A stretch of DNA of 53,058 nt from Erythrobacter sp. (GTDB taxonomy: Bacteria; Pseudomonadota; Alphaproteobacteria; Sphingomonadales; Sphingomonadaceae): NCBI GenBank assembly GCA_024642335.1, contig JAHEBH010000015.1, forward strand, positions 1 to 53,058. Direction: 5' to 3'. Shown here in pieces: positions 26,232-39,211 of this stretch (within the stretch, counting starts at the first letter, position 1; each line of letters starts with the position of its first letter). A program made the translations under genes and the position numbers. Below the pieces are notes generated by a model that was not told where the DNA came from, made no database searches, and saw nothing but the letters and a program-made list of their open reading frames with translations.

Positions 26232-26321
26232 CCGCTCGTGCTGAGCTTGTCGAAGCACCGCTTTTTCTTCTGCGGCGCTAGAAAGGAAAGACGACCCTTC
26301 GACAAGCTCAGGGTGAACGGG
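26232..26321. repeat. paired palindromic repeat (copy 1), gatC-gatA gap
   Basis: Left arm CTGAGCTTGTCGAAGCACCG at about 26241-26260 and right arm CTTCGACAAGCTCAGG at about 26298-26313 are inverted relative to each other. The centre (TTTTTCTTCT ... GAAAGGAAAGA) is itself partly self-complementary and is shared with the copy at 39218. The unit could fold into one long hairpin. It lies between two genes of the GatCAB enzyme and could affect their relative expression. Confidence 0.8.
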
Positions 26322-32649: not shown

Positions 32650-32730
32650 TCCGCTCGTCCTGAGCCTGTCGAAGGACGAGTTGGCGCGACAGACGCTATT
32701 CGTGTCTCGACAAGCTCAGCGCGAACGGCT
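32650..32730. repeat. paired palindromic repeat (copy 2), ATP12 / lipoprotein gap
   Basis: Left arm CGCTCGTCCTGAGCCTGTCG (32652-32671) and right arm TCTCGACAAGCTCAGCGCGA (32705-32724) are inverted, imperfectly matching copies of the same unit found at 26232 and 39218. The centre differs from those copies. It sits between convergent genes, so it could serve as a terminator for either. Confidence 0.75.
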
Positions 32731-36349: not shown

Positions 36350-39211
36350 ATGACACGCGAACTCGACAAGACTTTCGATCCCGCCGCCATCGAGGCGAAA
36401 TGGTACTCCCATTGGGAGGACAATGGCCTGTTCCGTCCGGAACGCCCCGATGCGGAGCCCTTCACCATCGTCAACCCGCCGCCGAACGTCACCGGCAGCC
36501 TGCATATCGGCCATGCGCTGGACAACACGCTGCAGGACATCGTGATCCGTTACGAGCGGATGCGCGGCAAGGATGCGCTGTGGGTGGTGGGCACCGACCA
36601 TGCCGGTATCGCCACGCAGATGGTGGTCGAACGCCAGATGGAAGCGCGGCAGGACAAGCGCACCAATTATTCGCGTGAAGACTTCGTCGACAAGGTGTGG
36701 GAATGGAAGGCCGAAAGCGGCGGCACCATCACCCGCCAGCTGCGCCGCCTGGGCTGTTCGATGGACTGGAGCCGCGAGCAGTTCACGATGGACCCGCATT
36801 TCACCCGCGCGGTGGTGAAGGTGTTTGTCGATCTCTACAACCAGGGCCTGATCTACCGTGACAAGCGGCTGGTGAACTGGGACCCGAAGCTAAAGACCGC
36901 CATCAGCGATCTCGAGGTCGAGACGCAGAACATCCAGGGCGGATTCTGGCACTTCAAGTACCCGCTCGCCGATGGCGTGACCCTGGATGACGGGCGCGAA
37001 TACATCGAAGTCGCCACCACCCGGCCCGAAACGATGCTGGCCGACATGGCCGTGGCCGTGCACCCCAGCGACGAGCGCTATGCCAGCGTTGTCGGAAAAT
37101 TCGTGACCCTGCCCATCACCGGCCGCCGTATCCCTATCGTGGCCGACGAACATGCCGATCCCGAGCTAGGTTCGGGTGCGGTGAAGATCACGCCGGGGCA
37201 CGATTTCAACGACTTCGAAGTGGGCAAGCGCGCGGGGATTACGCCCGCCGACATGCTCAACATGCTCGATGCCGATGCCGCGGTTTGCCAATGCGCCGAC
37301 GGGCTGATCCCCGAGGCGCTGGTCGGCATGGACCGTTTCGATGCCCGCGCGCGGGTTGTCGAACTGCTCAAGGAGCAGGACCTCCTCATCCCGCACATCA
37401 GCAAGAACAAGCAAGGCGAGGAAGAAGAGCACGACGCCGAACCACGCGTGATCGCAACGCCCTTCGGCGATCGTGGCGGCGTGGTGATCGAACCGTGGCT
37501 GACCGACCAATGGTATGTAAATGCCGCAGAACTGGCCAAGGCGCCGATCGCAGCGGTGAAGAACGGCGATATCGAGATCGTCCCCAAGACGTGGGAAAAG
37601 ACCTTCTTCAACTGGATGGAGAACATCCAGCCGTGGTGCGTCAGCCGCCAGCTATGGTGGGGACACCGAATTCCGGCTTGGTATGACGCCAACGGCAATG
37701 TCTTCGTCGCAGAGACCGAAGCAGAGGCCCAGACGCTCGCAGGCGGCAAGGCGCTGACCCGCGACGAGGACGTCCTCGACACATGGTTCTCCTCCGCCCT
37801 GTGGCCCTTCGCCACGCTAGGGTGGCCTGAAGAAGATAGCAGCCCTTCGACAAGCTCAGGGCGAGCGGTTTCCTTGTATGAGCGCCATTATCCCAACGAC
37901 CTGCTCATCAGCGGCTTCGATATCCTGTTTTTCTGGGATGCGCGGATGATGATGATGGGACAGGCCATGACCGGGCAGAACCCGTGGCCGCGCCTCTACC
38001 TCCACGGCCTCGTGCGCGCGCCGGACGGTCAGAAGATGTCCAAGTCCAAGGGCAATGTGGTCGATCCGCTGGGCCTGATCGACCAGTATGGCGCGGATGC
38101 GCTGCGCTTCTTCATGGCCGCGATGGAAAGCCAGGGCCGCGACATCAAGATGGATGAGAAGCGGGTCGAAGGATACCGCAATTTCGCGACAAAGCTCTGG
38201 AACGCCACGCGTTTCTGCCAGTCCAACGGCATTGGCGCGTCCGGCACCATTGCCGCGCCCGAAGCGAAACTGGCGGCAAACCAGTGGATCATCGGCGAAG
38301 TCCAGCAAACCGTCGAGGAGCTGGACAAGGCGATGGCGGATTTGCGCTTCGATGCCGCTGCCAACACGATCTACCACTTCACCTGGAGCCGCTTCTGCGA
38401 CTGGTACCTGGAACTGATCAAGCCGGTCTTCCAGGGCGATGCGGATAGCGACGCGGCGAAGGAAACGCGCCCTTCGACAAGCTCAGGACAGGCGGCTTTG
38501 GTCGAAGAGACCAAAGCCGTGGCCGGATGGGCGCTCGACCAGATCCTGGTCATGCTGCACCCCTTCATGCCCTTCATCACCGAAGAGCTATGGCACGCGC
38601 AGGGGGATCGTCCCTACGAACTGATCGTGGCCAAGTGGCCCGAACCGCAGGCCAGCGTCTCGAAGGATGCGACCGACGCCAAGGCGGAGATCGAATGGCT
38701 AATTGGGGCAATCTCCGAAATCAGATCGACTCGGGTTGCATTGGATGCTGGTGGCAAACCGATGTCGATCTTTGTTAGTCGCGCAGCTGAGCCCCAACTG
38801 TCTTGGTTCATCAAAAACCTCTCTTCGATTGCGCGCATGACGAGAGCCCAAGAGTGCTATTGCCGAACTCCGGAAGGAAATCAGGCGCTAGAGGCACTTT
38901 CTGGTGACCCAACATCATGGGCCGATATAATCGTTGCCGTCGAAGGCGAAGGTGAAGTGCAGCTGGTCATCGAAGGCATCGATGGGCAATTGGACTTCTT
39001 TGGAGAGGTCGATCTAGAAAGCGCGAGAACTCGCCTGACCAAATCACTCGAAGCTTCGACCAAGGAGGCGAGGTCGCTCGAAGGGCGCCTGAACAACCCG
39101 GCATTCGTGGAAAAGGCCAAGCCCGAAGCGGTCGAGAAGGCGCGCGAGGACCATGCGCACCACTCGGCCGAAATCGCACGGCTGCAGGCTGCGCTGGAGC
39201 GGCTGGGGTGA
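36350..39211 (+). CDS. valS: valyl-tRNA synthetase
   Basis: A 953-residue class I synthetase that charges tRNA-Val and edits threonine. The HIGH motif is in [14 protein letters not shown] (about residues 44-57) and the KMSKS motif in [13 protein letters not shown] (about 560-572); the editing-domain TTRPETML and the C-terminal coiled coil ([22 protein letters not shown], in two parts) are present. Two palindromic repeats lie in frame: residues about 498-507 (PSTSSGRAV, 37843-37868) and about 707-714 (PSTSSGQAA, 38470-38493). The stretch 38697-39060 has clearly lower GC and different codon use (AGA, CTA, ATA) than the rest. Confidence 0.97.
37843..37868. repeat. palindromic repeat arm inserted in valS (first)
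   Basis: CCCTTCGACAAGCTCAGGGC and the following GAGCGG match one arm of the paired intergenic repeats at 26.2 and 39.2 kb. It encodes PSTSSGRA in the valS frame, between the conserved LGWPEE and [16 protein letters not shown] segments where related synthetases have a short loop. Confidence 0.85.
38470..38493. repeat. palindromic repeat arm inserted in valS (second)
   Basis: CCCTTCGACAAGCTCAGGAC is a second single-arm copy in the same orientation and the same reading phase as the first, encoding RPSTSSGQA between [10 protein letters not shown] and [20 protein letters not shown]. Both fall in connecting segments, not in conserved blocks. Confidence 0.8.

Follow-up and report, generated by a model that had tools for sequence, protein, structure and literature searches.

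The valyl-tRNA synthetase gene (valS) of this Erythrobacter genome carries two in-frame peptides, PSTSSGRA and PSTSSGQA, that derive from a dispersed palindromic DNA repeat. We consider it likely (a probability of roughly 0.7) that these peptides are translated remnants of mobile REP sequences and of their inverted pairs (REPINs), that the repeats descend from elements encoding a nuclease, and that a small GIY-YIG nuclease mobilises them. The window (the whole 53,058-nucleotide stretch of DNA that was analysed) includes the complete valS open reading frame of 953 amino acids, on contig C102 of a draft genome of 2.66 Mb (G000). The valS feature is genuine: it is an in-frame insertion that derives from a repeat, its kind is already known, and the gene is a recurrent target of multiple repeat families.

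The 16-mer CTTCGACAAGCTCAGG has exact copies within valS at 37845-37860 and 38472-38487, both on the forward strand and in one phase, as the original prediction had described. With up to three mismatches allowed, the window contains 10 matches to it (0.57 expected; 10 or more in 0 of 100 shuffles). By arithmetic, PSTSSGRA corresponds to residues 499-506 and PSTSSGQA to residues 708-715; the numbers proposed earlier for the second site are off by one. The same DNA unit had also been said to form paired repeats, and we identified three inverted pairs in the window (Table 1), none of them within a gene by codon usage. That the match exceeds chance was borne out genome-wide: the 25-nt arm has 61 matches at up to two mismatches in the 2.66-Mb genome (control 0) and 70 at up to three (1 for a reversed-pattern control).

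Table 1. Features of the window associated with the valS repeats (positions are those of the window).
Feature	Position	Strand	Evidence or remark
REPIN of the valS-arm family (second)	26232..26320		Inverted pair of arms; folding computed
REPIN of the valS-arm family, more diverged (third)	32651..32728		Inverted pair of arms
valS, valyl-tRNA synthetase, with both repeat-derived inserts	36350..39211	+	ORF; Pfam tRNA-synt_1, Anticodon_1, Val_tRNA-synt_C; closest solved sequence 1gax
Remnant of the 3' half of a REPIN spacer, 5' of the site-1 arm with 3-nt overlap	37826..37843	+	Spacer-matrix score
Site-1 arm, translated PSTSSGRA, 5/5 stem pairs intact	37841..37868	+	Adds about 11 aa compared with ValS of genus members
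Site-2 solo arm, decayed, translated PSTSSGQA; one stem pair broken, tag changed	38468..38495	+	Without spacer remnant
Stretch with 12-bp hairpin and 5-nt loop, abutting the 3' end of the site-2 arm	38489..38520	+	Fold -22.0 kcal/mol, z -8.05
Intact REPIN directly past the valS stop codon	39220..39309		Single hairpin, -67.1 kcal/mol, z -10.4

The two sites differ in what is preserved. The half-spacer at site 1 scores 9.4 with a matrix made from 168 half-spacers, a value equalled at 0.00045 of positions in other ValS genes. No spacer remnant was found with this matrix beside the site-2 arm (0.054 of other-ValS positions score as high), and the possibility of a remnant beside both arms was rejected in favour of one at site 1 alone. 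Because half of a REPIN spacer is kept there, site 1 most likely represents what is left of a REPIN pair, namely its 3' half; the full pairs found at this site in G007, L187, G037 and G021 may resemble its ancestor. Both valS copies are single arms, of which the first probably stems from a pair. In the hairpin next to site 2 the 3' half appears native and the 5' half resembles an inverted copy, perhaps produced by template switching. An AlphaFold model of ValS is weak (mean pLDDT 64.5); pLDDT is below 50 at site 1 (within segment 493-507) and over part of site 2 (702-710), the remainder of which is modelled as helix. This is weak support, because many other ValS segments also fall below 50. 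In a fold search, all of the 50 matches listed were ValRS, IleRS or LeuRS chains, with 1gax first.

Each arm consists of a CCG(C/T)TC tag and a 5-bp stem, the outer three pairs of which covary: they are Watson-Crick in 363, 388 and 407 of 417 distinct arms, compared with shuffled means of 221, 171 and 276. Most elements are inverted pairs with a variable spacer: G000 has 27 such (-+) pairs among 38 elements, and G021 has 53 among the 64 surveyed. Pairs fold as hairpins (z -10.4 for one and -5.3 for another). The family thus has the attributes of REPs and REPINs, being a short imperfect palindrome with many copies, inverted pairs that form long hairpins, and a mostly extragenic distribution (16 of 223 surveyed elements are within genes). 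With its CCG(C/T)TC tag, the main family lacks the terminal CGTC or GTAG that marks the two REP superfamilies of those names. The arm was found in 78 of the 148 genomes searched (including G000 itself), with 1 to 153 copies each. The repeat DNA was absent from the literature text searched, and a search with the insert peptide returned a sole match, an unrelated malware paper.

We aligned 104 distinct ValS proteins, comprising those of 36 of 40 genus genomes and 80 named loci, less 12 duplicates; the remaining four genus genomes gave partial matches only, and the 80 loci are the best 80 of at least 593 confirmed stretches. By exact valS matches, the genus of G000 takes in Aurantiacibacter suaedae, A. 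sediminis, A. marinus, A. odishensis, A. luteus and Alteraurantiacibacter aquimixticola. An insert is present at site 1 in 21 of the 104 proteins, at site 2 in 9 (one of them, L218, short and doubtful) and in a third loop in 2. As the comparison with relatives was expected to reveal, ValS proteins without a repeat at these places lack the residues in question. The idea that the peptides are ancestral ValS residues that resemble the repeat by chance is refuted by this alignment, and we accord it virtually no probability: genus members have no such residues unless some repeat family sits there, the Thermus ValRS 1gax is gapped at both sites, and the match to the DNA repeat is beyond chance.

Families were assigned to the inserts by eye from DNA and protein. 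At site 1, six ValS carry the window's family, nine carry the CCCTCCCGC..GCGGGAGGG family or its variant, four carry the CCTCCACC..CCCCTCCCC family (one as a fragment) and two carry the CTCGACTTCGCTCGACA family, possibly a cousin of the family found in the window. CGTC-tagged REPs (family F) occupy the third loop. By these assignments, at least three clearly different repeat families are common to the same ValS loops. In the sequences examined, the insert families also occur outside valS, at 17, 2, 4, 7 and 4 places for five patterns (0 for the reversed-sequence control). In two valS genes the 3' arm has its tail in tandem copies that keep the frame, three in G021 (L145) and two in G037 (L141). 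Inserts are scattered on the ValS core tree, where parsimony gives 21 changes for 21 site-1 tips and 9 for 9 site-2 tips, one per tip; transfer of whole valS genes may be an alternative to repeated insertion. The description of both sites as loops agrees with the many insert lengths tolerated there, and we predict that these loops lie at the protein surface. The same loops of an essential enzyme have thus repeatedly acquired peptides from mobile DNA, and since at least three clearly different families are involved, permissive sites in a protein can be read from natural insertions.

Repeat-derived in-frame insertion goes beyond this repeat family and beyond valS. A survey of the window's family covered six genomes, G000 in full and the other five in part, and located elements in valS, truB, glyS, carA, trmD, ribE and a methylmalonyl-CoA mutase gene (Pfam), as well as in genes for a Flavoprotein/DFP protein (coaBC-like) and a Glycos_transf_3 protein (trpD-like) (Pfam). 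Of the 18 in-gene candidates called automatically, two were removed: L347, which has a weak score and a nearby stop, and L350, where the element precedes the DapB domain. valS is over-represented in this survey because G021 and G037 were picked for their ValS repeats and G000 is the finding itself. At 80 ValS-centred loci, which were found by ValS similarity, valS (222 kb) contains 12 elements and the flanks (603 kb) contain 11, of which none was assigned to a gene (p 6e-7 if 85% is taken as coding). Among genus genes, recognised repeats occur in 12 of 36 ValS, 3 of 29 IleS and 4 of 30 TruB (three of these four, from G021, G037 and G027, were added after the inserts had been seen, and ten genus TruB genes were left out); the excess in ValS is marginal (p 0.039 versus IleS, 0.084 versus TruB). 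The IleS genes of G000 (L470) and G027 (L488) share another family, SPLP.GEGPGVGG...PSPTPSL, in frame at one place. The glyS of G088 (L327) has two REPINs at different sites, the first of which appears to be the same site as in the glyS of G021.

Could the inserts be kept for a useful role, for example in translation pausing, as linkers or in regulation? Different families recur in the same ValS loops and at about one TruB loop, and tRNA-related genes recur as hosts, as a role would predict, but tolerance accounts for this recurrence equally well. The inserts are scattered, often absent from the sister tip and varied in length and sequence, and both solo-arm stretches of valS fold no better than shuffled sequence. 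We therefore regard a retained function as quite unlikely and favour tolerance of peptides that are probably neutral.

The original prediction held that only one frame of the repeat is allowed in proteins, which is too strong. By inspection, five of the six frames of the valS-type arm are open (in arm variants ending in ..TGAGCGG the PSTSSG frame is closed by TGA). Frame use is strongly biased, not absolute. Reading frames by eye from translations of 16 surveyed copies plus four ValS inserts (from G007, L187 and L191), we found the 3' arm in the STSSG frame in 18 of 20 in-gene copies; in 16 of 17 the 5' arm is translated as PE(L/P)VEG or something close to it. Nine of 11 gene sites use the STSSG frame only (p 0.0014 for one in three, with sites that are not fully independent). 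The exceptions are ribE of G000 and one glyS of G088, plus, outside the 20 copies, ribE of G002. The riboflavin synthases of G000 (L063) and G002 (L519) have an apparent solo arm in the same loop, in another frame (LRKAQDGR and RRQAQDER). In two of the four nuclease elements described below the nuclease ORF extends into the 3' arm and reads it as STSSG, which might explain the bias; alternatively, it reflects selection for a flexible peptide.

Arms are usually separated by about 40 nt. In G000, in G021 (twice) and in G037, inverted arms lie about 310-330 nt apart and enclose a gene for a GIY-YIG nuclease, forming elements of 357-382 nt. These four family-A elements were found by looking at arms. 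PF01541 was detected in all four arm-enclosed genes scanned, and Y16, R26 and E63, which we take to be the catalytic residues, are invariant among 13 aligned GIY-YIG proteins. REPINs have ends in common with the coding elements of the same genome, the relationship expected of MITE-like derivatives. Type-1 nuclease ends match REPIN class 1 (4/4 ends, p up to 1.1e-4) with no class-2 match, and type-2 ends match class 2 (4/4 ends, p up to 7.5e-4, with a class-2 matrix made from six spacers picked by eye) with no class-1 match. In G027, which has 100 arms, the stretches examined around arms contain no arm-flanked GIY-YIG gene, and in G088 the GIY-YIG gene is bordered by an arm pair at just one of its sides. 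G021 also has a more distantly related GIY-YIG gene (L256, 272-508), flanked by an almost perfect 34-nt inverted repeat that belongs to a different palindrome family (TCACGTCGCCCCGTGCTTGACACGGGGCTTGGCT). Rfam models detected only RNase P at the four nuclease-element loci, in two of them, and no GIY-YIG relative was confirmed in viral contigs.

The association of GIY-YIG genes with REPs is wider than the window's family. Three protein searches of a plasmid collection gave 20, 27 and 33 overlapping records, from which 23 regions were taken. Flanking inverted repeats scoring at least 30 surround 14 of 17 alphaproteobacterial GIY-YIG genes (11 of 14 with near-duplicates collapsed), compared with 2 of 678 control positions; three of the 17 have none. 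An initial repeat scan gave 13 of 17, because one arm lay within the coding end, versus 0 of 442 controls. Among GIY-YIG genes of other groups, one of six is flanked (in a record labelled Aeromonas caviae), and one other-group control position (L548) scored 63. Of the 14 flanked genes, 11 have a CGTC-tagged upstream arm and 8 have the tag on both arms. At E <=10, one of these CGTC arms matches 617 places, spread over 223 plasmid records. In Azospirillum lipoferum a GIY-YIG gene lies between sufB and sufC. A GIY-YIG relative of Sphingomonas paeninsulae (L527), between rnc and era, contains an internal stop codon and is without flanking arms.

These genes might lie between REPs merely because REPs favour intergenic space near small mobile genes. 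REPs are generally intergenic in the available text of PMC3733652, but a preference of this kind leaves unexplained that the repeats are inverted around the gene, that just 2 of 678 control windows of the same loci reach the score, and that the subterminal sequences match the cognate REPIN class. We consider it unlikely. The GIY-YIG genes could also be hitch-hikers of the REPs instead of encoding their enzyme.

A second enzyme deserves consideration, the RAYT (a Y1 HUH transposase), by which ordinary REPINs would be mobilised. The arms are REP-like in tag, hairpin and inverted pairing, and G000 encodes one Y1_Tnp protein. However, a Y1_Tnp gene is present in just 3 of 40 genus genomes (29 of 148 genomes overall) and absent from 28 of the 36 genomes with at least 20 arms, and arm count is independent of it, both across all 148 genomes (Mann-Whitney p 0.79) and among genus members (p 0.23). 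The contig that carries the Y1 gene of G000 (L097) has no arm among those listed, although a run of N adjoins the 5' flank of the gene. With arm number unrelated to Y1_Tnp presence, RAYT as the driver is not supported and appears very unlikely.

Movement of the repeats by a GIY-YIG nuclease is predicted from sequence as follows. A REPIN (arm, spacer of about 40 nt, inverted arm) would insert as one unit, and copies that land in a permissive loop with an open reading frame encoding a flexible peptide would survive within essential genes. The inserted REPINs would then shrink by in-frame deletion to single arms, as may have happened in this valS, insertion preceding deletion. REPINs themselves would be miniature derivatives of elements in which the same inverted arms enclose the gene of a small GIY-YIG endonuclease, and the nuclease of the one such element in G000 is the most likely mobilising enzyme. 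We lean slightly towards a broader proposal, that REP-associated GIY-YIG nucleases, equivalent to RAYTs in role and unrelated to them in fold, mobilise alphaproteobacterial REPs and REPINs, including the CGTC type, and are the source of peptides in ValRS and other essential proteins. The nuclease is a testable candidate for how CGTC-type REPs spread and such a route, if true, would mean that the problem of moving palindromic repeats has been solved a second time, independently.

Earlier papers have reported intragenic REPs, including those in tRNA synthetases and TruB, but we found neither this family nor the ValS hotspot in print. The likeness to Rickettsia palindromic elements noted at the outset is apt. 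Those elements are palindromic repeats that interrupt conserved genes without shifting the frame, among them genes for tRNA synthetases (PMC3767692) and truB (PMC3733652). They differ in host and, as far as the repeats are named, in the repeats themselves. Orthologues are described there as sharing the insert at one locus (PMC3767692), whereas the ValS proteins with inserts are scattered and several families enter one loop. CGTC and GTAG REPs have been found inside ORFs, including those of tRNA synthetases and truB in E. lithoralis and S. alaskensis (PMC3733652). Family F in ValS is likewise intragenic and CGTC-tagged, whereas the tag of the main family is neither CGTC nor GTAG. The available text of the same paper describes CGTC repeats as without association to transposase genes, and its main text does not mention 'GIY', whereas the CGTC REPs described here flank GIY-YIG genes. 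By sequence, the nucleases belong to the same family as UPF0213 and stand-alone GIY-YIG nucleases (PDB 1zg2, 1ywl), for which a literature search revealed no link to mobile repeats: GIY-YIG is absent from the 15 papers listed out of 86 that contain three or more of the terms. In its many inverted REP pairs and a nuclease-type gene close to REPs, the system resembles REPIN/RAYT as outlined in the available part of PMC3116915, but the gene encodes a GIY-YIG nuclease in place of a Y1 HUH transposase.
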